Shown here piece after piece: positions 43,440 through 59,640 of a stretch of DNA of 64,000 nucleotides; the first letter of the stretch is position 1, and the number at the start of each line of letters is the position of its first letter. This DNA comes from Microbacterium sp. (GTDB taxonomy: Bacteria > Actinomycetota > Actinomycetes > Actinomycetales > Microbacteriaceae), in NCBI GenBank assembly GCA_013823625.1, contig PNMM01000002.1:641061-705060 (forward strand). The letters run 5' to 3'. The translations under genes and the position numbers were made by a program. The notes beneath the pieces were generated by a model. It was not told where the DNA came from. It did not search any database and saw only the letters and a program-made list of their open reading frames with translations.

Positions 43440-43449
43440 AGGCGGCGGC

Positions 43450-43750
43450 GTCTGCGCGGTGAGCGAAGCGCGGCGACCGCGCTCGGCGCGCGGAGCGCGC
43501 TGCGCCGCAGGGGCGGCGGCGCAGCCAGAAGTCGACACCGAGGGGATGACGGGAATCGAACCCCGCAGACGCGTCAGCGTCTGCGCCTCGAGCGAAGCGC
43601 GGCGACCGCGCTCGGCGCGCGGAGCGCGCTGCGCCGCAGGAGCGGCGGCGCAGCCAGAAATCAACACAGAGGGGATGACGGGAATCGAACCCCGCAGACG
43701 CGGCAGCGTCTGCGCGTCGAGCGTGAGCCGGTGAGGTTTGGGCGGGCCAG
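43450..43750. repeat. 129-bp tandem repeat (two full copies plus a shortened third leading into the tRNA) carrying tRNA-Gly 3'-end fragments
   Basis: Landmarks GTCTGCGC at 43450/43579/43708 and AGGGGATGACGGGAATCGAACCC at 43541/43670 (and in the intact tRNA at 43751). Confidence 0.85.
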
Positions 43751-43821
43751 AGGGGATGACGGGAATCGAACCCGCGCTATCAGCTTGGGAAGCTGAAGTT
43801 CTGCCATTGAACTACATCCCC
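43751..43821 (-). tRNA. tRNA-Gly (anticodon CCC)
   Basis: GGGGATGTAGTTCAATGGCAGAACTTCAGCTTCCCAAGCTGATAGCGCGGGTTCGATTCCCGTCATCCCCT; folds as a cloverleaf with anticodon loop TTCCCAA. Confidence 0.95.
43780..43821. repeat. attL: 42-bp direct repeat TCAGCTTGGGAAGCTGAAGTTCTGCCATTGAACTACATCCCC
   Basis: Identical to 59599-59640. Confidence 0.95.
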
Positions 43822-44010: not shown

Positions 44011-44829
44011 ATGTCGAGGCGCAAGCAGCCCGCCGACCACCTTGATACATATCGTGCAATCTCGCCCCCCTCGCTTATGGATGAACTCCGTGGTGTGATT
44101 CAGCAGTACGGAGAAAGAAACACTCTGAGGCTCTGCCGCAAGGGGAAGTTGGTTACCCGAGCCGATGGCAGCTCGTACCGGGTTGCCTGTGGGAACAAGT
44201 GGTCGTGTCCCCTGTGCTCTCCTTATTGGCTCGGTGAGCATGCGCGGGACATCTCGCGAGTGCTTCAATCAGCGCCCACCGTTTTCTACGTGACCTTCAC
44301 GCTCGCGCGAGAAAGCGGAGGCATCCCGCAGATCGGATCGCTCGACTCCCTCCTTCAAACGTGGTCGGCGGCGTTCTCCACTGGCTCCTGGATGTCTGAT
44401 TTTCGAGATCGCTCGGAGCTACTCGGCTGGGTGCGAACTGTCGAGGTCACCTTCCGGGAGGGAGGATTCCACCCCCACATCCATGCCGCGTTCCTCTTTG
44501 CCGCACACCTCCATGGAGACCATGTGCAGTCGCTCCTTCAGCGTTGGCTCGTAGCCGCCGAGCGGCGAGGTCTACGTGCCTCAGACAAGGCACAGCGGGG
44601 CTACTACGTGGCACCTGGACGGGACCGGGAGAAGGTCGCCTCCTACCTCTGCAAGCAGAGCGCGATTCGACGGTCGAGCGGTGGGAAGGGACGAACTCCG
44701 GGTGATCTGCTACACAGCGTGGCCAAGACTGGCGACGCTGACGATCTACAGGCCTTGCTGGCCTTCCACCGAGCCGTTGCGGGCAAGCAGAAGATCTCTA
44801 CTTCCCGAGGCTTCTGGAATCTTGCATGA
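44011..44829 (+). CDS. Rolling-circle replication initiator (HUH, Rep_1-like)
   Basis: GGFHPHIHAAFLF HUH motif, KVASYLCKQ catalytic-Tyr motif, CGNKWSCPLC. Confidence 0.8.
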   Translation: MSRRKQPADHLDTYRAISPPSLMDELRGVIQQYGERNTLRLCRKGKLVTRADGSSYRVACGNKWSCPLCSPYWLGEHARDISRVLQSAPTVFYVTFTLARESGGIPQIGSLDSLLQTWSAAFSTGSWMSDFRDRSELLGWVRTVEVTFREGGFHPHIHAAFLFAAHLHGDHVQSLLQRWLVAAERRGLRASDKAQRGYYVAPGRDREKVASYLCKQSAIRRSSGGKGRTPGDLLHSVAKTGDADDLQALLAFHRAVAGKQKISTSRGFWNLA

Positions 44830-45421: not shown

Positions 45422-47431
45422 ATGGCACCATCAGTGATTATGCGAAGACTCTCCGTGTCTGTGAGCCAGGACCACCTGCTCAATCAGGTGAAGTCACCAA
45501 GGCACGGCCTCTTGGAGCTGGTCTGGAATGCATTCGACGCGGACGCAACTCAGGTTGATGTTGTCGCGGAAGAGAACTCCCTCGGGAGCATCACTCGTGT
45601 CACGGTTTCTGACAACGGCACAGGGATCACGGCCGAGCAGGCCGAGCGTCAGTTCGATCAGCTGGGCAACTCTTGGAAGGCTCAACAGAAGATCAGCGAT
45701 AAGGGTAGACAGTTTCACGGCCAGTACGGCCGAGGACGTTGGTCCGCGTTCGGCATCGGAGCGCAAGCGTCTTGGGTTTCCGTCGCCGAAAGAATCACTG
45801 GGGTAGTTGAGAAGCTTCGAATCGATGGCCAGCGCGATGACCTCGCTGGTTTCGACTACGAGGAACCAGAATCAGCGCCTGGTCAGCAGCGAGGGACAGT
45901 CGTCACCATCGCTGGGATTCTAGACAACGCACAGCGCTACTTCCTCAGCCCGGAGCCCCTCACCGACCTGACGACCCAGTTCGCCACATACGTCGAAAAC
46001 TATGGGATCACGATCACGTTCAACGGGACAAAAGTTGACCCGAAAGCGATGCAAACGAGGTCCCACGATCTCGTAGTTGAGGTTCCAACCGCGACCCCGT
46101 CCCGCGTCGAGGTTCGTGTCGTCGAGTGGGAGCTAGCTGTTCACCGCGCCATCTACTTCATGGACAGCAACGGAGCAATCCTGCATGAGATGCGGGCGGG
46201 CATACATGCGCCTTCGTTCGACTTCACGGCTTACGTTCGGTGGGCTCCTGCTCGGGAAAGACAGTCAGAGTTGCTCCTAGAGGAGAGCGCTCCGGACCCG
46301 ATCCCCGCGATCATTCGCGCTGTTCGGAGTGCGCTAAGGGACTACTTCGCGGCTCGTGACAAAGAAGAGCGCTCCAAGGTCCTAGAAAGGTGGAAGAGCG
46401 AGAAGTCCTACCCGTACAAGGGTGACGCTGCGAACACAGTTGAGCGTGCAGAACGTGAGCTCTTCGAGGTAGTGGCTCTGACCGCAGCCAAGGCGATTGA
46501 GCCGATGGAACAGCGGGAGCGACGGCTCTCGTTTGCGCTGATTCAGCAAGCACTGAGCCAGAATCCTCAGGCAGTGCGCGTGATTCTCCGGGACGTGCTC
46601 GACATGCCCGAGCGCAAGCTCAACGACTTGACCTCGTTGCTAGAGCGAACGAGTCTGAGCTCCATCGTCTCGATGGCGAAGACAGTATCGAACCGACTTG
46701 ACTTCGTCCGAGGTCTTGAACACATGGTGTTCGACAAGCAGACGAAGAAGGTCCTTCTCGAACGAAGTCAGCTTCACAAGATCCTGGCTGCTGAAACCTG
46801 GATCTTGAAGGAGGAGTACTCGCTATCTGTCAACGACGAGACGCTCACCACCGCACTTCGCGATCATCTCTCGGAGTTTGGCCGCGACGACGTAACCACT
46901 GCAGACGCGCAGGCCTCGGAGGTGCTCGATACAGATGGCAAGCGTGTCGTGGTTGACCTAATCCTCAGCTCGATCGTTCCGCAGACAGCGAATCGACGTG
47001 AGCATGTTGTTATTGAGTTGAAGAGGCCCACGGTCCACATCAATGCGGCGGGGCTCCTCCAAGCGAACAAGTACGCCGTGGCCGTCAGAAACGATCCTCG
47101 TTTTGAGAAGGTTCAGGTGTCTTGGGAGTTCTGGATTATCGGCGACACAATCGCCGAAGACGCCAAGAACCTACTCGACGAGACAGGACTGTTTGGCAGT
47201 ACTGGGAAGGGCGACAACCTCCCCATCCGCGCGGTCACGTGGGCGCAGGTCATCGAAGACGCGAAGCATCGACTCAAATTTGTCGAGAAGGCTCTGGAGA
47301 TCGAGCCGAGCACTTCTAGTGGTCTGACCTACTTCCGAGAGAACTACTCGCAGTACATGCCCGACATCGACTCAGACGACGAGGCAGACGAGCTGGACAG
47401 CGCCGCCGAGGCACCAGAATCGACGAGGTAG
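45422..47431 (+). CDS. MORC-like GHKL ATPase with predicted C-terminal PD-(D/E)xK nuclease
   Basis: LLELVWNAFDADA, VSDNGTGI, GQYGRGRWSAFGIGAQ; C-terminal VVVDLILSS...HVVIELKRP. Confidence 0.78.
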   Translation: MAPSVIMRRLSVSVSQDHLLNQVKSPRHGLLELVWNAFDADATQVDVVAEENSLGSITRVTVSDNGTGITAEQAERQFDQLGNSWKAQQKISDKGRQFHGQYGRGRWSAFGIGAQASWVSVAERITGVVEKLRIDGQRDDLAGFDYEEPESAPGQQRGTVVTIAGILDNAQRYFLSPEPLTDLTTQFATYVENYGITITFNGTKVDPKAMQTRSHDLVVEVPTATPSRVEVRVVEWELAVHRAIYFMDSNGAILHEMRAGIHAPSFDFTAYVRWAPARERQSELLLEESAPDPIPAIIRAVRSALRDYFAARDKEERSKVLERWKSEKSYPYKGDAANTVERAERELFEVVALTAAKAIEPMEQRERRLSFALIQQALSQNPQAVRVILRDVLDMPERKLNDLTSLLERTSLSSIVSMAKTVSNRLDFVRGLEHMVFDKQTKKVLLERSQLHKILAAETWILKEEYSLSVNDETLTTALRDHLSEFGRDDVTTADAQASEVLDTDGKRVVVDLILSSIVPQTANRREHVVIELKRPTVHINAAGLLQANKYAVAVRNDPRFEKVQVSWEFWIIGDTIAEDAKNLLDETGLFGSTGKGDNLPIRAVTWAQVIEDAKHRLKFVEKALEIEPSTSSGLTYFRENYSQYMPDIDSDDEADELDSAAEAPESTR

Positions 47432-48772: not shown

Positions 48773-49102
48773 CTAAGGGCTCTCGTCGTATAGCGGCTTC
48801 AACAGTTCGCCCAGGGGGATGTCGAACGCCCGAGCGATTCGATACCAGGTCTCCAGGTTCCCGCGCGAGGCAGGCTTCTTCGGATTACGGCGAGGCCTGC
48901 CCGATTCGATAGACACCAGAGTTGCGCGACCGACGCCGGAGCGAGCCGCCAGCTCGTCGTATGACCAGTCACGTTCTACACGAATGCGTCGAAGGTGCAG
49001 AGACAACGCTGCGAAGTTCGCAGGCGGCACCGGACCGTCGTCATCTTGCACACAACCAGTGCATCGGGAAGCGCTCTCGCCACTGTCATGGCTAGCCATC
49101 AC
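48773..49102 (-). CDS. XRE-family transcriptional regulator
   Basis: DWSYDELAARSGVGRATLVSIESGRPRRNP HTH. Confidence 0.88.
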   Translation of the reverse strand: MMASHDSGESASRCTGCVQDDDGPVPPANFAALSLHLRRIRVERDWSYDELAARSGVGRATLVSIESGRPRRNPKKPASRGNLETWYRIARAFDIPLGELLKPLYDESP

Positions 49103-49118
49103 AATTATGGCTAGCCAT
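49088..49118. promoter_or_regulatory. Twin perfect palindromes ATGGCTAGCCAT (probable XRE operators)
   Basis: 49088-49099 and 49107-49118, 19 bp apart start to start, between divergent genes. Confidence 0.8.
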
Positions 49119-49139
49119 CACCCACGGAAGGGGGTCGCC

Positions 49140-50261
49140 ATGACCCTGTACGCACTTCATCACGACTGGATCGACGGGCACGTTGCGCAAGCGCCCGTCG
49201 GCATCTGGAACGAGGACGGTGAAAGCTACTACCCGCCCTTCACCGTCCACCTGCAGCATCGCGGATACCGTGCGGGGTCACGCCCGCCCGAGCGGTCCTG
49301 GGCGGGGCACCTGGAGTACCTCACCGACTCTTCGTCGGCGTACAACGCCAACTGGAGCATCGTCGATTCGGAACTGACCATGCCAGAGATACTCATCACG
49401 CTCCAGGAGCGCTTCTTCGCCGTAGAGCACCCCGAGCCGACACTGAGCGGCAGGGCCGACGGCCTGCCGGGGCACAAACAAGATTCTGAGGGGCGGGAAG
49501 AAGATTCTGACCTGCCCAAAGAAGATTCCGTCGGGCGCAAAGAAGATTCTGGCGAGGACGAGGGCAAGACTTCCGCCTTCACTCCAGCTCACCGATACGT
49601 GATCGCCCAGTCGTGGTGGGTGGCCAGCGAACTCGCTCGACGCCACCCTGATCTCGTCATCCATGAGATGCACCCAGGAGGCGGAATGTACGACTGCCTT
49701 GCGCTTCTCTCGCCGGGCGATTTGAAGCCTTTCGTCCAGTTGAACCGGGTCGGCACCATTCACGTCATGTCCACACCTGAGTACCGCACGACATGGGCCG
49801 AGGCGCTGGAAGCAGCGTCGCCACACGCCGTGGTGAAGGAAATCGAGCAGGTTGCGGACCTGAAGATGCCCGCTAAGGCTCCCGCCAGTACCCCTCGGAC
49901 GCTCGCCTACCGGTTCATAGCGGCAACCCTGAATGCGACTCTGAATGACAGGTACAGATGGGATGCCCGCAATGAGTTCTTCGACTCATCGGAGGACAAC
50001 CCGACAGTGCTCAACGGCTACCTCGCTGGGTTCCCAGAAGTGCGCCGGAGCCTTCCCGCTACGCCGCAGATGGGGCTCTGGCACGAGCCCGAGTCGCATT
50101 ACTGGGCGCTCCTGCGAAACGACAGTCCAGTCGCCATCGTCAGCATCGAAGGTGTCGTCTACAGGCCCGACCGGCAAATCGACCTCACCACTGAGTACCG
50201 GCGTCACGACTCGCGGATGCAACCAGTAGTAGCCTCGGCGCTCGCCGACGTGCTGCCCTGA
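49140..50261 (+). CDS. TY-Chap2-like putative peptide-chaperone protein
   Basis: HEMHPGGGMYDCLALL signature recalled from the TY-Chap families; two related-looking halves joined by an acidic repeat linker. Confidence 0.5.
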   Translation: MTLYALHHDWIDGHVAQAPVGIWNEDGESYYPPFTVHLQHRGYRAGSRPPERSWAGHLEYLTDSSSAYNANWSIVDSELTMPEILITLQERFFAVEHPEPTLSGRADGLPGHKQDSEGREEDSDLPKEDSVGRKEDSGEDEGKTSAFTPAHRYVIAQSWWVASELARRHPDLVIHEMHPGGGMYDCLALLSPGDLKPFVQLNRVGTIHVMSTPEYRTTWAEALEAASPHAVVKEIEQVADLKMPAKAPASTPRTLAYRFIAATLNATLNDRYRWDARNEFFDSSEDNPTVLNGYLAGFPEVRRSLPATPQMGLWHEPESHYWALLRNDSPVAIVSIEGVVYRPDRQIDLTTEYRRHDSRMQPVVASALADVLP

Positions 50262-50839: not shown

Positions 50840-53053
50840 TCACTCCATCGCCATCATCATCTCGTAGTGCCCGGTTTGGTCTGTCTTCGTGAAGATCTCT
50901 GCGAAAACTCGGAGGTAGACGTCCTTGCTCATATTCGAGGGTGAGTAGTCAAAGTCGTCTACAAAGGCATGAGAACCGTGGTGAAGCCAGGCGAGAAGAG
51001 CCTTGTATGCAAGTGCATCGTCCCCGACGCTGCTCTCCATGAGTTCATCCAGATCGGGGTAACTGCCAATTACGGTGAAGTAGTTCTCTAAGATGCGCCG
51101 GAGGACGTTCTCCAACCCAGCGTCACTTGGGCCATTGGTTGAGCTTGCCTCCCTGACCACTTGCCAGAGCCGTTGGTAGTTCGAGCGAACGAGGTTTCGG
51201 CCTGAGCCCGTAATGACGGTGTCGCCGGTGGCGTCGCGGCGTAGCTCATAGAAGCGACGCCCGGCAAGTAGCCCCTTCGAGCGGTCTCTGCCGCGTTCGT
51301 ACGTCAACTCTAGGTAGAACTGCGCGTTGTGGGTGAGTACCACCAACTGGGTCAAGCGACCAAGGCCATCGTGGACCGTCTGAATCAACCTCCGGACGAG
51401 GCTGCTGACGACGAAGAGCACGTCGCTGTCGAGGCTTGATATTGGATCGTCGATTACTGCCACGAGTTTTCGGGCGTCTGCGGTGGTGTGTCGACTTTCA
51501 AGTTGAACGTAGAAATAGAGAAAAGCAATGAAGGTGCGTTCTCCGTCGCTCAAAGTGTCTTCGACGGAGCTGCCGTCTGAGCGCTCCAACCGATAGGCGT
51601 CTTTCGCCGTAGTCGATGCGGCGAGGTTGAACCTTACGAATCCCACCTTTTTCAGCAGACTGTTGAGCCGTGCGATTGCGGGCGCTGATGATACGAGTTG
51701 CGCTTCAAGTGCTTGCGCTCGTTGACGGGACTGTTCGAGAGAGTGGGACGCCCCTTCAAGCTCTGTGGATAGTGTCTGCCGTTTCGTCTCCGTGGCGCTG
51801 ACCACTCCGAGAAAGCGGCTCAACTCAGCCGACATGATGTTCCAAGCGAAGTACTCCCAGCATCTCGATACGAGTGCAGCCTTGGCCTCGCGCCTGTTGG
51901 TGAGACGTTCGTTGTGCTCCAAGATGACGGAATTGGTTGCTGAGATCACACCGTTCAACTGCAGGATCAGTGTGTCAAGGTCCACTAGCTCGACAACCAG
52001 CGTCGGACTCTGGACCTTCGCAGCGACAACACCTTCGTTCGAGACGATCCCCGCTCGCAGTTCCGCCGCGACGGCGGCAAGTTCTGTCTGGTTGACCATC
52101 GTCGAATCGAGTCCCTCCAGCGAACCGATGATGGCTTCCAGGACTCGATGGCTTTCTCTGGCTTGGACTTGGAAGGTATTGAGAGCACTCCGCTTGATCT
52201 CGTACTCGTTGTCAAAGAACTCAGCGAGGTGCTGGAGGAAGTTCGTGGGCAACTCCTGTTGGCAGAAGGGGCATAGATCGTCTGATGAACTGACGAATCT
52301 ACGGCCTTCGGCAACCCAGTCCTGGTTGTCAAGCCGCTCGATCACCGAGGCGAGTGAGACCTCTGAGCTTCCCGCGATTGGGATGCCGAGTAACGCACAA
52401 CCGGGGGAAGAGAACACTGCCGCGTAACTTGGGGCTGGGGCAATCGGATCGATTCGTTGTCCGGCTTGATCGAAAGCGCTGACTGCCTCTCGCAAGAGAG
52501 CCTCAACCTCAGGCGGGTCAGTCTTCACAGTGCCGATGAGCTTCTCGGCAAACACCTCTCGACTTCCGTTGAAGCCGTCGAACATGCTCCGAAGTTCAAC
52601 AGGCATCTTCTCCCGGGCTGCCCATGCCGCAGTTAGCAGGCTCTCCCTGGCGACTCGAATCTGGTTGTTGATGGCCCCCAGGTCCTGCGTCAGAGACCTC
52701 ACTGACTCTTCATGCTGCGCGATATCTCCTGCGGGCTTAGTCAGGCTCGTGTACTCAGCCCGCGCTGTCGGATCTTCGTCGTCAAGAACGAACACGCCGG
52801 GGAGTTGATCGGCTTCTTGGAGCGTCGATGAGATGTAGTCGCGGTTGAAGACATGGACGTCAACTTCAGGGCTGCCTCCACGGAGTTCATACTTTGTGCC
52901 TGGGAACTGCACCGTGTCTTGAAGGATCCGCGAGATTGTCGTCTTCCCAGTTCCATTCGGTCCAAAGACGAAGTTGAATCTGTCCAAGTCTTCAAGCGCA
53001 CAGTCGGTCCCCGAAAAGCTTGGCGCTCCGGTCAGCTGGATTCGACTAAGCAT
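50840..53053 (-). CDS. AAA_13-family ATPase (RloC/PrrC-like)
   Basis: FNFVFGPNGTGKTTISRIL, VFNRDYI, central CPFCQQELP, LSDGERTFIAFLYF, VAVIDDPISSLDSDVLF. Confidence 0.8.
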   Translation of the reverse strand: MLSRIQLTGAPSFSGTDCALEDLDRFNFVFGPNGTGKTTISRILQDTVQFPGTKYELRGGSPEVDVHVFNRDYISSTLQEADQLPGVFVLDDEDPTARAEYTSLTKPAGDIAQHEESVRSLTQDLGAINNQIRVARESLLTAAWAAREKMPVELRSMFDGFNGSREVFAEKLIGTVKTDPPEVEALLREAVSAFDQAGQRIDPIAPAPSYAAVFSSPGCALLGIPIAGSSEVSLASVIERLDNQDWVAEGRRFVSSSDDLCPFCQQELPTNFLQHLAEFFDNEYEIKRSALNTFQVQARESHRVLEAIIGSLEGLDSTMVNQTELAAVAAELRAGIVSNEGVVAAKVQSPTLVVELVDLDTLILQLNGVISATNSVILEHNERLTNRREAKAALVSRCWEYFAWNIMSAELSRFLGVVSATETKRQTLSTELEGASHSLEQSRQRAQALEAQLVSSAPAIARLNSLLKKVGFVRFNLAASTTAKDAYRLERSDGSSVEDTLSDGERTFIAFLYFYVQLESRHTTADARKLVAVIDDPISSLDSDVLFVVSSLVRRLIQTVHDGLGRLTQLVVLTHNAQFYLELTYERGRDRSKGLLAGRRFYELRRDATGDTVITGSGRNLVRSNYQRLWQVVREASSTNGPSDAGLENVLRRILENYFTVIGSYPDLDELMESSVGDDALAYKALLAWLHHGSHAFVDDFDYSPSNMSKDVYLRVFAEIFTKTDQTGHYEMMMAME

Positions 53054-56000
53054 CGAGAATCTCCAGCGGAGGGAGAGATTTCACAATCTTCACCGTTTCG
53101 ACACTCACCGTCACGATGCGCGCGAGTAGGTCGAGAATGTAGCGAGGATTGCCCTGTTCTACCGCCCAATCGTTTGGGTCGTTGACGATGCCAGAGGCCT
53201 TATCAGTTTTGACCTGGTAACGCTCCATGACCCAGTCGAGGGCAGAACGGGAGCCGAGCATGTACTCTTGCGCTTCTTCCGGGATGCCGGACAGTGTGAT
53301 CCCGCTGTTGTAGATCACTTTGGTTTTGTCTACGGTGCGACCTGTCTTTGAGTACTTCATCTTCTCGACGCGGTAGCTCGCGTTTGATGCACGCTGCTCT
53401 TGCAGCGGGTACGGCTCGACCGCCTCGTAGTCGAGGTGCAGCTGCATGAGCTGGCGACCCGCCTCCACGAAGGAGCTGAAGGCTCTGACTTTCGGAATGC
53501 GCGGCAGCTTCTTCTTCAAGTCGGCCCCGAATTGCTCTCGGTAATCAGGACTGTGCAGAACGCCATACACGTAAGCGAAGATCGCGTCCTTGGTAACGTC
53601 GGGGCCGAAGGACTTCTGGTAGTCAGCAAGTATCTCGTCCGTCACATTGTCAATTCGTCGGTAGGGATCGTCGCCTTCGTCAAGTGCACGGAAGAGGCTG
53701 TCATCTTCTTCGCGGGCCTCAATTACGTGCCGTGGGAAGAACTGAACTGCGCTGATCCCGGCTAGCCCTAGGTCTGGGACTACATCCGTCACTAACGCCA
53801 TGAACGGCGGCGCGGAGTTTCCTGGCGCAGGGACCGCGATTCCAAGCGCGCGAGAACCATCCGGGAAAAAGCGCGCGGCGATGGAAGGGCGATCAATCAG
53901 GTCCTGGTCGCCCGTCAGATGTACTCGTGTGAATGGGCGGTAGAGGGCGATGCGTGGCTGGGCAGGCTCGTCATCGAACAAGCGTCCTCTTTCCAGCCGG
54001 GCGACCAGCTTGTCACTCCAACTGATCTTCCTGGGATCGTTGTTCCGTTTCCACGGTAGCCCGGCCTTCTCAGCCGAGAGTTTGGCTTGGACTTCGGAGT
54101 TGAAGACTTGCTTGGTTGCAGCCTCGTTGGACTTTAGTGATGCCTTCGAGAACGAATAGACCCAGGCATCTCTGTTCGTCTTGATTCCGTTCGCATTGGC
54201 GTGAAAGATGTGGGGGACCGTTGCGCCGCTGCCTGATTCCATTGGGTTGAACGCTGCGAAGTCATCACGACGTTGATTCACCCAGTCGCCTTCAGCATTG
54301 GGAGTGATTACCTGCCAATCGACGCCGGACAAGCCTCTTGCTTCCCTCACCAGCCTGAGCTTCTCGTCACGCGAGAGGTAATCCCCGATGTCTCGGTAGT
54401 GGATGACGGCGGGCCGAGACGCTCCTCCGCGCTTTACGAGCAGGAACACCGCCACCGTTGCTCGGCTCCCTGCGCCGAAGACCTTGCCGCCTTCCCGGCG
54501 CGACTGCTCTCCAGCGGTTCGCTGGTTGCCACGTAGGTTGAAGACGTAAATCGAGTCGAATTCCTCGGCGAGGGATACCCGAAGGCCATCCGCCGTGTTT
54601 CCTTCGATGAAGCCGCCGTTTGTAACGAAAGCGACGATTCCTTTGTCGCCGATGCGATCTGACGACCATCGAATCGCGCGGATGTAGGAGTCATAGAGAT
54701 TGTTCTTCAGGGTTGCGGTAGAACGAGCTGCGTAGGTGGCCGCGATCCTCGCGTCGAGAGTCGGATACTTCAGGTTCTGGTTTTCCGCATTGCCGCTCTC
54801 TTGCCCAGCTGAGTACGGAGGGTTCCCGATCACAACCCGAATGTCGAGAGCCTTCTGTGCCTCGACTCGCTCGTTGTTTTCTGGGAAGACCCCCTGACCG
54901 TCGAGCTCATCGTTGGCTTCGTTCATCTGGAAGGTATCGGTGAGGACAATGCCGTTGAACGGTTCGTAGTCACCGCCGCTGAGGGCGTGGAATGTCTCTT
55001 CGATATTGATGGCGGCAACGTAGTAGGCGAGGAGCACGAGTTCGTTGGCGTGCAATTCGTACCGATACTTCCGCGCCAAGTCCTCCGGCTTGATCAGCCC
55101 GGACTGGAGCAGGCGGACGATGAAGGTGCCCGTGCCCGTGAATGGGTCGAGCACGTGGACCCCCTCGTCGGAGAGGCTCGCACCGAACTCCGACTTCAGG
55201 GCATCGTCCACAGAGTGGATGATGAAGTCCACGATCTCGTTAGGGGTATAGACGATCCCGAGTCGGTCGCTCGTTCCCGAGAATGCCGTCTGGAAGAACT
55301 TCTCGTACAGTTCCTTGACAATTTGCTGTTTCGCGGCGGCGTCAGTGATTCCGGCAGCGCGAGTGCGCACGGACTCGTAGAACTTGTCGAGCTTCTCGGT
55401 TTCCTTTTCCAGGTGCTGCTCTTCGAGAGCGTCGATCATTCGCTGCATCACCTGGGACACCGGGTTGTGGTCACTGAAGGCGTAGCCCTCGAAGAGCGCG
55501 TCAAAGACAGGCTTGGTGATGAGGTGTTGCGACAGCATCTCGATGGCATCCCGTTCGGTGATGAACGGATTCAGGTTGTCCTGCAGGCCTTTGAGGAACC
55601 GAGCGAACTCGTCGTGAAGCGTGCCGTCGGATCCCTCGACTAGTGCCCTGATGCGCGTGATGTGGTCAGAGGCGATGCCCGCGACATCCTTGGCCCAGTT
55701 CTCCCAGTAGCGGCGCTCGCCGACCTTCTGGACGATCTTGGCGAGGATGGCGTCGCGCCACTGGTCGAGGGCCGGGAAGTCGAGAGTGACGGATGTATCG
55801 CCAGCCTTGTCTTTGCCGTCCTCGCTACCGCCTCCGCCCACTCCGATGACCGAGAGCTTGCCCTCGGTGGACTTGGTGAGGTCGATCTTGTTGACCATTG
55901 CGTCGAAGCGCTCGTCGTGGGCGCGAAGTGCCTGAAGCACCTGCCAGACGACCTTGTACTTCTTGTTGTCGTTGAGCGCCGTTGCCGGGTCCATGTCGGC

Positions 56001-57809
56001 AGGTACGCCGATGGGAAGGATGACGTACCCGTACTTCTTGCCTTCGAGCTTGCGCATCACGCGACCGACCGACTGCACGACATCGACGACCGAGTCGCGC
56101 GGGTTGAGGAACATCACTGCGTCGAGGGCAGGAACGTCAACGCCCTCGGAGAGGACTCGCGCGTTGGTGAGGATGCGGGCGTTGCCCGCTCCAGGGTCTT
56201 GCTTCAGCCAGTCGAGTTCCTTGTTGCGGTCGAGCACGTTGTAGGTGCCATCGACGTGACGAACCTCGACATCGAGAAGTGAGTCCGCGTCTTCGTCGAG
56301 CGCTTCGATCTCGGCCTCGACGACCTTCTCGAAGAGGTTCGCGATCTTCTTCGATTCGTTGATGTTGCGAGCGAAGGCGACGGCGCGCTTCATGGGCTCG
56401 GGGTCGAGGGAGAACTCTTCGGGGGTGAGCGAGCGCTTGGAGAGCCCGTTCCAGCAGCCGACGATCTTCGCGGCGTCGTCCAGTGTCAGCTCGTTGTTCT
56501 CGTCGGCCAGGAGCCGTTGGAAGCGCTTCGAGATGTAGGACTCGTCCACGGCGAGCACGAGCACTTTGTAGTCGGTGAGTCGGCCCATGGAGACGGCCTC
56601 TCCGAATCCGAGGCGGTGGAACTCCTCGCCGTAGAAGGCAGGGTTGTTCATGTCGGTGAGGACCGCCCCAGCTTCTTCCGCCTTCGACTTGCTGGCGTCG
56701 GCGTAGATGCGCGGTGTCGCGGTCATGTAGAGCCGCTTCTTGGCCTTGATGTAGTCCTGGTTGTGAACCTTGACGAACGCGGACTCTTCATCCCCCGCGA
56801 GCGTGACCCCCGTCGTGCGGTGGGCTTCGTCGCAGATGATCAGATCGAAATCCGGGATGCCCTTGCCCTGCGCCTGAGCGACAACGTCGATGGACTGATA
56901 GGTCGAGAAGACCACGGTGATGCCATCGAAGCCGTCAGGGACCTCGGCGAACTTCTGCACCAGCTTCGTCGTGTTCGTCGTCGCCGGGTACGCGAGGTCG
57001 GTCACCGGGATGTCTTCATCCGACTTGCGCTTACCGACACTCACGTCCGAGCAGACGGCGAACGACCGCAAGGGCAGAGCGGACTCGATGGTCCACTCCT
57101 TCAACGTCTGGGAGAGCAGCGAGATCGAGGGGACGAGGAAGAGTACAGTGCCACCACGGGGGACGACCTCCTCGACGAGCTTCAGGCTCGTGAACGTCTT
57201 TCCCGTGCCGCAGGCCATGATCAGCTTTCCTCGGTCGGCAGCCTGGAAGCCCTCGATGACTTTCGAGATTGCCAGCACCTGGTGAGGGAACGGCTCCTTA
57301 GCGGCCTTCTTCGTCAGCTCACCCGGTCGAGCGAAAGAGAACTGCTCCCAGTCGATAGAAGATTCGTCGAGGTCCTGAACGCGAAGCCGCTGCACCGGAG
57401 GGTTCTGATTCTCGACCGCGTCTTCGGCATTGCGACCCCAGTTGTCGCTCGTAGAGATCACCAGTCGCGCCGAGAACTCAGGCTTGCCGTCGAGGTTCTT
57501 GCTGGAAGCGGCAAGGAACGAGTCCAGCATCGGCTTCGTGACCGTCGTGGAAGGGTCGAAGAACTTGCACTGGATCGCGGTCAGCTCGCCCGTATCCCGA
57601 GCACGCGCGACGAGGTCGATCCCCGTGTCGCGCCGGTTGCCGCGCTGCGGGTAGTCGCTCCACATCCAGACATCGCTGTAGAGCTGCGCGTACTGCGGCT
57701 CAGTATTGAGGTAGGCCTGCATGAGTCGCTCGAACCGGTCGCCCTTGTCGCGCTCGTCGAACGACACCGCCCTGAACTCGCTCAGGATGTCGTGGATGCT
57801 CGTAGCCAT
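53046..57809 (-). CDS. Single-polypeptide restriction-modification enzyme, type ISP-like (nuclease-helicase-methyltransferase-TRD)
   Basis: GIDLVARARDTGELTAIQCKFF nuclease, ACGTGKTFTSL, ICDEAH, QSVGRVMRK, DPFTGTGTFIVRLL, VIGNPPYSAG, C-terminal specificity-like region. Confidence 0.93.
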   Translation of the reverse strand: MATSIHDILSEFRAVSFDERDKGDRFERLMQAYLNTEPQYAQLYSDVWMWSDYPQRGNRRDTGIDLVARARDTGELTAIQCKFFDPSTTVTKPMLDSFLAASSKNLDGKPEFSARLVISTSDNWGRNAEDAVENQNPPVQRLRVQDLDESSIDWEQFSFARPGELTKKAAKEPFPHQVLAISKVIEGFQAADRGKLIMACGTGKTFTSLKLVEEVVPRGGTVLFLVPSISLLSQTLKEWTIESALPLRSFAVCSDVSVGKRKSDEDIPVTDLAYPATTNTTKLVQKFAEVPDGFDGITVVFSTYQSIDVVAQAQGKGIPDFDLIICDEAHRTTGVTLAGDEESAFVKVHNQDYIKAKKRLYMTATPRIYADASKSKAEEAGAVLTDMNNPAFYGEEFHRLGFGEAVSMGRLTDYKVLVLAVDESYISKRFQRLLADENNELTLDDAAKIVGCWNGLSKRSLTPEEFSLDPEPMKRAVAFARNINESKKIANLFEKVVEAEIEALDEDADSLLDVEVRHVDGTYNVLDRNKELDWLKQDPGAGNARILTNARVLSEGVDVPALDAVMFLNPRDSVVDVVQSVGRVMRKLEGKKYGYVILPIGVPADMDPATALNDNKKYKVVWQVLQALRAHDERFDAMVNKIDLTKSTEGKLSVIGVGGGGSEDGKDKAGDTSVTLDFPALDQWRDAILAKIVQKVGERRYWENWAKDVAGIASDHITRIRALVEGSDGTLHDEFARFLKGLQDNLNPFITERDAIEMLSQHLITKPVFDALFEGYAFSDHNPVSQVMQRMIDALEEQHLEKETEKLDKFYESVRTRAAGITDAAAKQQIVKELYEKFFQTAFSGTSDRLGIVYTPNEIVDFIIHSVDDALKSEFGASLSDEGVHVLDPFTGTGTFIVRLLQSGLIKPEDLARKYRYELHANELVLLAYYVAAINIEETFHALSGGDYEPFNGIVLTDTFQMNEANDELDGQGVFPENNERVEAQKALDIRVVIGNPPYSAGQESGNAENQNLKYPTLDARIAATYAARSTATLKNNLYDSYIRAIRWSSDRIGDKGIVAFVTNGGFIEGNTADGLRVSLAEEFDSIYVFNLRGNQRTAGEQSRREGGKVFGAGSRATVAVFLLVKRGGASRPAVIHYRDIGDYLSRDEKLRLVREARGLSGVDWQVITPNAEGDWVNQRRDDFAAFNPMESGSGATVPHIFHANANGIKTNRDAWVYSFSKASLKSNEAATKQVFNSEVQAKLSAEKAGLPWKRNNDPRKISWSDKLVARLERGRLFDDEPAQPRIALYRPFTRVHLTGDQDLIDRPSIAARFFPDGSRALGIAVPAPGNSAPPFMALVTDVVPDLGLAGISAVQFFPRHVIEAREEDDSLFRALDEGDDPYRRIDNVTDEILADYQKSFGPDVTKDAIFAYVYGVLHSPDYREQFGADLKKKLPRIPKVRAFSSFVEAGRQLMQLHLDYEAVEPYPLQEQRASNASYRVEKMKYSKTGRTVDKTKVIYNSGITLSGIPEEAQEYMLGSRSALDWVMERYQVKTDKASGIVNDPNDWAVEQGNPRYILDLLARIVTVSVETVKIVKSLPPLEILDA

Positions 57810-57992
57810 GCGGTGCCCTTCGAAGCGTTGACCTTGGTGCCACGGTATCGGTCGCCCAAGACAACTCGGCGTGACCGGCGGGCGGTTTCTGTCGTGTTCT
57901 CACCATTCCTACGCGCCCAAGATCGGTTCTCTGTTTCTGGGTATCGGCGCTCGCCGAGTGATCGATCCGGGATGCTCTCGCCGGAGGTGCTC

Positions 57993-58262
57993 ATGGGCTC
58001 TTGGGTTGCGCGGTATGAAGAGGGCTACGTGTCTGATGACGGCAGTGACGTGACCCTTGTGGAGGAGCTGCATCTCGCCATTCAGTGGAGCACCCCCGAG
58101 GCAGCTCTTCAGCACTGGGAGTCGCGTGACGACCTCAGAGGCCCCGATGTCGAGAGATTCGGCAACGGGCTTCAGCAGCTCCACGATGTGACGGAGCGCC
58201 CTGAGTTCAGGGCGCTCCGTGTTGCCTCGATCTGGAGACGGGTTACCTTCCAGAAGCTCTAG
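57993..58262 (+). CDS. Small uncharacterised protein
   Basis: GGAGG 5 nt before the ATG; stop shares CTAG with the convergent integrase stop. Confidence 0.55.
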   Translation: MGSWVARYEEGYVSDDGSDVTLVEELHLAIQWSTPEAALQHWESRDDLRGPDVERFGNGLQQLHDVTERPEFRALRVASIWRRVTFQKL

Positions 58263-59377
58263 CCCGACGTGGCGCTCGCCCCCCACGTCCCACCCATCAA
58301 GCGATTCACGTCATCAGCCACCTTGCGGTCGCGGTCTGCATCGGTGTGCTGATAGCGCATCGCAGACTGGAGGGAGCGGTGTCTACCGCGCGCCATCACG
58401 TCCTTGATCGGCGCTCCAGAAGCCGCGACCAAGGTCAAGCCAATGTGGCGGATGTCGTGAACATGGAAGTTTTCCAGTCCCGCCTTCGTCGCCGCGCTGC
58501 GCCAAGCCTTCTGGAGGGAGCTTCGCGGCATGCGCGGGCTCACGACACCAGGAAACATCGGAACAGCACCGATGCCGAGCGGCAGGCGATTGATCGCAGC
58601 GACACCAATTTCGAACAGGTATAGCTCTGCGCGCGCACCGGTCTTCGTCTCCGTGGTGTGTCCGAGGTTCGTCACCTGGCGCTCGATCCGAAGTTCGCCC
58701 GTCTTCCGGTTGAAGTCATTCGCGTTCAGCGCCACTACTTCCCCGAGACGAAGGTGTGCGGCGAACATGACCTCCAGCGCTTCGCGGTAGTAGACGCGCT
58801 TCGCACCAGTCGCACTGTTGACAACGACCTCCGCGGGGACATGTTCGAGTACCCGAAGGAAATCTTCTTTGGACCACGAGGGTCGAGGTTCGCCGACACC
58901 TTTGTTGAGGTCGAGCACTTGGCAGGGAGAGCGGCGAACGTACTTCCACTTCACGGCGTACTTCATGGCGCGGCGCAAGAACGCGTAGACGTTGCGCCGG
59001 GTCTCGGTCGGGCGTTGTGCGGCGAACCACTTGTCTACGGCCTCTTCGTCGAACTCCTCCATGCGCAGGTTCCCGAAAGCGGGCAGCAAGTGAACCTTCA
59101 AGTAGGAGCGGTTGTTTGCCAGCTCGCCTTGGGTAGCCGTCAGTTCGCGGTGCGCCATGTACTCGACCATGAAGTCCCGAAAGCGCGTCTTCCCCTTCCG
59201 TCCGTCCCAGTGCTCACCGCGCCGGATGTCTACCTGGATCTCGTCGAGACGTTGCTCCGCCTGACCCTTGGTATCGAAGGTCCCCGCCGATACTTGCTGG
59301 CCAGTCGGCAGCATGTACCGGGCCTGAAACCTCCCGCTCTTCAGCCTCCGAACATTGCCGTTCTTGTTTCTTGTCAT
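58259..59377 (-). CDS. Tyrosine site-specific integrase
   Basis: LRLGEVVAL Arg, HDIRHIGLT, GRHRSLQSAMRYQH catalytic residues. Confidence 0.95.
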   Translation of the reverse strand: MTRNKNGNVRRLKSGRFQARYMLPTGQQVSAGTFDTKGQAEQRLDEIQVDIRRGEHWDGRKGKTRFRDFMVEYMAHRELTATQGELANNRSYLKVHLLPAFGNLRMEEFDEEAVDKWFAAQRPTETRRNVYAFLRRAMKYAVKWKYVRRSPCQVLDLNKGVGEPRPSWSKEDFLRVLEHVPAEVVVNSATGAKRVYYREALEVMFAAHLRLGEVVALNANDFNRKTGELRIERQVTNLGHTTETKTGARAELYLFEIGVAAINRLPLGIGAVPMFPGVVSPRMPRSSLQKAWRSAATKAGLENFHVHDIRHIGLTLVAASGAPIKDVMARGRHRSLQSAMRYQHTDADRDRKVADDVNRLMGGTWGASATSG

Positions 59378-59598: not shown

Positions 59599-59640
59599 TC
59601 AGCTTGGGAAGCTGAAGTTCTGCCATTGAACTACATCCCC
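59599..59640. repeat. attR: 42-bp direct repeat, orphan 5' half of tRNA-Gly
   Basis: Identical to 43780-43821; no 3' half follows. Confidence 0.95.

Follow-up and report, generated by a model that had tools for sequence, protein, structure and literature searches.

In Microbacterium sp. (GCA_013823625.1, contig PNMM01000002.1, positions 641,061-705,060), a gene for a restriction-modification (R-M) enzyme overlaps a gene for an AAA_13 protein, which raises the question of what the second protein is and whether the two act together. We call the whole analysed stretch of 64,000 nt the window, and all positions are window positions. An earlier note on this DNA had described the AAA_13 protein as RloC/PrrC-like and its linkage to an ISP-type enzyme as notable. 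The features on which the argument draws are the following.

50840..53053, minus strand: RloC-type gene (737 aa; profile, motif and model evidence)
53046..57809, minus strand: Type ISP restriction-modification enzyme gene (1587 aa; domains and motifs intact)
53046..53053, minus strand: 8-nt overlap of the ISP stop and the RloC start, ATGCTTAG (the same at locus L160, in another genus)
57909..58286, minus strand: small ORF between the integrase and ISP genes (ORF list and profile search)
58259..59377, minus strand: tyrosine integrase of the element, upstream of the pair on the same strand (profile match)
43780..43821, minus strand: attachment site 1, 42 nt, the 5' part of the tRNA-Gly(CCC) gene at 43750-43821
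59599..59640, minus strand: attachment site 2, a perfect 42-nt copy (repeat search)

A Type ISP gene overlaps an AAA_13 gene within a mobile element

The overlap has the 8-nt length given in the earlier note. The ISP stop codon TAG (53046-53048) and the RloC start codon ATG (53051-53053) both lie within the shared ATGCTTAG, and a GGAG is located 7 nt 5' of the ATG, inside the ISP gene. Along the strand, the order is integrase, small ORF, ISP and RloC. An ATG-to-stop overlap alone is no proof of functional coupling; the pairing itself goes beyond chance, because the identical overlap is kept in another genus.

The pair is carried by a 15.8-kb element at tRNA-Gly, with 42-nt att repeats at both ends. 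The host genome holds two copies of the repeat, whereas two congeners each hold one with the right flank abutting it, that is, an empty site; we therefore regard the 15.8-kb stretch as an integrated element. Its GC content is about 58-62%, compared with about 66% to the left of it. The element also encodes a Rep_1-like replication protein (44011-44829, plus strand; below the Pfam cutoff), a hint that the element resembles a plasmid or is an integrative element that replicates, and a 669-aa GHKL/HSP90-like ATPase (45422-47431, plus strand), possibly a further defence gene, whose N-terminus is weakly similar to BbrUII/HgiDII-type restriction proteins. The gene at 48819-50261 (plus strand) encodes a TY-Chap2 protein (YbjN/CesT-like chaperone) and contains tandem repeats of 21 nt, in frame, at 49472-49572. 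Adjoining tRNA-Gly is a 129-nt tandem repeat (43442-43773), each of whose three copies contains a 26-nt piece of the 3' end of the tRNA-Gly gene (43538, 43667 and 43748); these copies are possibly scars of earlier insertions.

The R-M partner is a complete Type ISP enzyme

Profile matches to the 1587-aa protein occurred in the order Mrr_cat_2, ResIII, Helicase_C, ISP_coupler, N6_Mtase and Type_ISP_C, and the protein aligned end to end with LlaBIII (4xqk; 1313 bits). It thus combines, in a single chain, an Mrr nuclease, an SF2 helicase-like ATPase, a coupler, an N6-adenine methyltransferase and a target recognition domain (TRD), which bears out the earlier description of a single-polypeptide ISP-type enzyme. 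The catalytic motifs are intact, namely D65/Q80-C-K82 (Mrr), GTGKT, DEAH, NPPY and DPFTGTGTF (methyltransferase), and all are invariant relative to a Rhodococcus enzyme described below. The window enzyme is accordingly a full-length homologue of LlaGI and LlaBIII, with every motif and the same domain order, but differs from them in having RloC immediately downstream with an 8-nt overlap. ISP relatives were absent from the viral contigs searched.

The 737-aa protein is of the RloC type

RloC proteins have been defined as 658-897 aa long, with an ABC ATPase and a coiled coil that bears a CXXC hook; their ACNase motif is Arg-X3-Glu-X36-52-His, often with Ser preceding the His, and their C-terminal region is not present in Rad50/SbcC (Davidov and Kaufmann, PMC2610378). 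The 737-aa protein shows every one of these features in size, ABC motifs, hook and R-E-H spacing. It matched AAA_13 from end to end (430 bits), and its domain layout is that of RloC: a Rad50-like ABC head (residues 1-~110 and ~456-580) is split by a coiled coil and followed by an ACNase-type C-terminal domain (~590-737) that bears R652, E656, S694 and H695. The ATPase described in the earlier note is indeed intact (Walker A GPNGTGKT at 31-38, signature LSDGE at 501-505, Walker B/D-loop DDPISSLD at 535-542 and switch His H575), as is the proposed zinc hook, C261-P-F-C264 (CPFCQQ, 261-266), within the coiled coil. The C-terminus aligned to the Arg-Glu-His triad as R652-X3-E656-X38-H695, at the published spacing and with S694 preceding the His.

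These residues are widely kept among homologues. The hook cysteines were invariant in 85/85, R652 was kept in 80 of the 85, and the position of E656 held Glu in 77 and Asp in 6. The unbiased figure for a complete aligned triad is 49 of 85 homologues. R, E, S and H were invariant in 27/27 homologues bearing the triad, with identities as low as about 20%, in a set for which mostly His-keeping sequences had been selected and those without the His mostly left out. In gut bacteria, many AAA_13/RloC-like proteins carried by phages (L013, L076-L133) have the hook, Arg and Glu without the catalytic His; these proteins are perhaps inactive or use another residue.

Taken together, the 737-aa protein resembles the RloCs of Geobacillus kaustophilus and Acinetobacter baylyi in size, coiled-coil-split ABC ATPase, CXXC hook and R-X3-E-X36-52-H motif with Ser, and differs in that its gene is joined to a Type ISP gene by an overlap. 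Its sequence points to an RloC-type protein that we predict to be a tRNA anticodon nuclease, an activity that in RloC entails excision of the wobble nucleotide. The RloC half of the earlier "RloC/PrrC-like" label therefore stood, on size, hook and R-E-H motif, and the PrrC half did not. Like our pair, PrrC and EcoprrI combine an ACNase-type triad at the C-terminus with an R-M partner, but PrrC is 341-416 aa long, carries no zinc hook and has its linkage to hsd genes of type Ic; a 737-aa protein with a hook and an ISP partner is ruled out as a PrrC member. To our knowledge, PrrC occurs solely with type Ic R-M systems. The PADLOC PrrC profile covered residues 501-720 (46 bits), while the PADLOC PDC-S06 profile matched the full length (592 bits). 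PDC-S06 takes in the window protein and other relatives of RloC type, but is a candidate class with no mechanism in the library and covers such proteins in any context.

AlphaFold predicted a Rad50-like head and long helices around the hook (pLDDT 83, pTM 0.48); with so low a pTM, domain orientation was left uninterpreted. The best structural matches of this model in the PDB were Rad50 heads. The C-terminal domain modelled alone (pLDDT 81, pTM 0.69) gave no significant PDB fold match, HEPN included; this speaks neither for nor against the published placing of RloC in the HEPN superfamily (PMC3710099), which is marked by a four-helix fold with an RNase motif. The loop bearing H695 was of low confidence in the models. 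A sequence search found no solved PrrC or RloC structure.

The ISP-RloC pair recurs but is uncommon

Linkage between RloC and ISP genes is recurrent but uncommon. Among 397 Actinomycetota genomes, ISP_C occurred in 42 and AAA_13 in 11, and the two were adjacent only in the window genome. Among 150 genomes of the host family, RloC was present in 6 and ISP in 13, with both in two genomes and adjacent in both; the remaining 11 of the 13 ISP-bearing genomes lacked RloC. Co-occurrence in the 150 family genomes, which include the window's genome by construction, was weakly enriched (p = 0.085), and our argument therefore rests on conserved adjacency and overlap.

The second adjacent pair, at locus L160 in a genome of another genus (G856), shares the identical 8-nt overlap ATGCTTAG, with 75% identity between the ISPs (61% in the TRD) and 53% between the RloCs. 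It forms a block of 57-61% GC (about 59%) inside flanks of 65-75% GC (about 70%), and the two genes therefore appear to have been transferred as a unit. This pair (L160:11281-15434, minus strand) adjoins an SbcD gene; SbcCD-like genes are likewise found near the RloC genes L006 and L008.

A further adjacent pair is located on a Rhodococcus pyridinivorans plasmid, the sole one recovered with a chimeric query of 72,556 plasmids. Its RloC begins 106 nt after the ISP, belongs to a distant clade (23% identical to the window RloC) and has the hook CLFC and the motif R668-X3-E672-X40-H713. Because a distant RloC clade is also paired with ISP, the pairing arose at least twice. The recurrent ISP linkage suspected in the earlier note was thus found in one further genus and, as an independent case, on a plasmid, but the surveys of 397 and 150 genomes do not make it a general rule; most ISPs lack RloC and most RloCs lack an ISP neighbour, which rules out a general link. 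An ISP 72% identical to that of the window also occurs without RloC, so RloC is an optional add-on. At locus L185, the place 80 nt behind an ISP gene (53% identical) is taken by a 636-aa gene whose product has an N-terminus like that of OLD/RecF-type ATPases (LTKFQVRKFRNI); other effectors may occupy this position next to ISP.

RloC relatives change R-M partners

In the RloC tree, the window and L160 proteins group as sisters with a support of 98. Next to them comes L002 (47%; from a Bifidobacteriaceae MAG), whose gene is preceded by those for a methylase and a nuclease of the PaeR7I/XhoI type. Among their cousins, the RloC gene of L161 comes last in a type III operon, where it overlaps by 4 nt, and that of L163 diverges from a type I hsd operon. 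With a limited query set, no R-M neighbour of RloC was found at L162 and L164. Five of the seven members of this actinobacterial clade consequently adjoin R-M operons, which fall into four classes (ISP, type I, II and III). Among more distant RloCs, L009 and L010 adjoin type I systems and L008 a PaeR7I system. That the partner class can be swapped would favour a DNA-break signal common to the partners over a protein contact specific to one of them.

Several of these neighbourhoods hold further genes. The type III-like operon (L161:8461-19382, minus strand) comprises DUF4391, two N6/N4 methylase genes, Res and RloC. At L150:5658-14532 (plus strand), an RloC-like gene is flanked by a fused HsdM-HsdS gene and a RhuM-Fic gene, with a ResIII helicase next in line; the locus resembles the R-M/Doc/RloC loci of PMC3710099. 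In two genomes of one genus (L145:1005-4544 and L146:3872-7420), an RloC-like gene is near an opposite-strand gene for an nSTAND-WD40 protein of 1180-1183 aa.

What may connect the two genes

RloC is described as seldom linked and self-regulated. Linkage between RloC and R-M genes as such has been known since 2008, when a survey counted only type I/III linkage, in 8/73 cases. The earlier note's word "notable" is hence fair for linkage to the ISP class and not for R-M linkage in general. The open-access papers searched, which describe R-M-linked RloC, made no mention of an ISP partner; an earlier description elsewhere is possible.

We lean, by a modest degree, towards reading ISP-RloC as a mobile two-layer anti-phage cassette, in which the RloC tRNase is triggered by DNA breaks that are left uncleared or made by phages. 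In the first layer, the Type ISP enzyme would methylate its own sites and restrict unmodified incoming DNA; enzymes of this type methylate adenine site-specifically and cleave after convergent translocation. In the second, the co-translated RloC would be a latent tRNA anticodon nuclease, restrained by its Rad50-like ATPase and zinc hook and activated either by uncleared linear or broken DNA from restriction or by phage-made breaks. Once active, it would disable translation, and phages escaping restriction would be stopped. What the loci themselves contribute to this reading is their gene anatomy, the conservation of the active-site residues and of the overlap, the recurrence of the pair and its transfer as a unit. 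Linear-DNA- and break-dependent tRNA cleavage comes from the RloC family: GkaRloC requires linear DNA and ATP, and AbaRloC is activated by DSB inducers in R-M mutants as well (PMC3874168). By extension, the window RloC would cut tRNA with ISP-made ends as its trigger, the outcome would matter for phages, and the overlap may set the expression ratio. That close relatives pair with ISP, PaeR7I-like type II, type III and type I systems is what a link through a DNA signal, and not through one protein surface, would predict, and given these swapped partners we regard the reading of DNA ends or unfinished restriction as the most economical model. A difficulty is that normal restriction also yields DNA ends, which a break-triggered toxin must tolerate or respond to.

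A broader reading, which we hold tentatively and think somewhat doubtful, is that RloC serves as a second-layer effector, interchangeable between systems and attachable 3' of any R-M operon. It would read a common signal, restriction-made ends or stalled restriction, and not a specific R-M protein; the ISP-RloC overlap would then be the most compact, two-gene form.

The ISP enzyme might instead act as a guard, as the earlier note also suggested, binding and silencing RloC until phage anti-restriction factors disable ISP and free the tRNase. PrrC sets the precedent, being silenced by EcoprrI and released by a T4 anti-restriction peptide (PMC2610378); a conserved translational overlap would fix the ISP:RloC stoichiometry, and two of the published RloCs show linkage to ArdC anti-restriction genes. 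We nevertheless judge such a guard unlikely. In A. baylyi, where the R-M genes are unlinked, R-M mediates neither silencing nor activation of RloC (PMC3874168), the partner class changes inside one clade, which speaks against a dedicated protein contact, and many RloC relatives have no R-M neighbour at all.

It is comparably improbable that the two are independent defence genes, placed in one island and on one transcript so as to be transferred together, with no functional interaction. Defence genes do cluster in islands, RloC is found alone or beside any R-M class, and ISPs are found without RloC, including the 72%-identical one. Against this, the 8-nt overlap is kept at 53% RloC identity, the L160 pair appears to have been transferred as an isolated block, and an overlapping gene order also occurs in the type III case. 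A last alternative is that the AAA_13 protein is devoid of RNase activity and serves, like SMC/Rad50, in DNA repair or DNA loading. Its Rad50-head folds, the missing HEPN match and the many His-less phage-borne homologues might suggest as much, but this alternative is very hard to reconcile with R652, E656, S694 and H695, invariant in the window's clade, with a C-terminal region foreign to Rad50/SbcC (PMC2610378) and with a PrrC profile match reaching that region.

Judged from sequence, the pair looks like a genuine two-layer anti-phage unit of known parts. With a conserved RloC-ISP overlap and swapped partners in one small clade, it offers a two-protein system for testing whether the predicted tRNase is triggered by restriction or by its loss. 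As ISP is a single polypeptide with well-studied cleavage, its production of DNA ends could be tuned with nuclease-dead, ATPase-dead and methylation-only mutants, which is harder in three-subunit systems.
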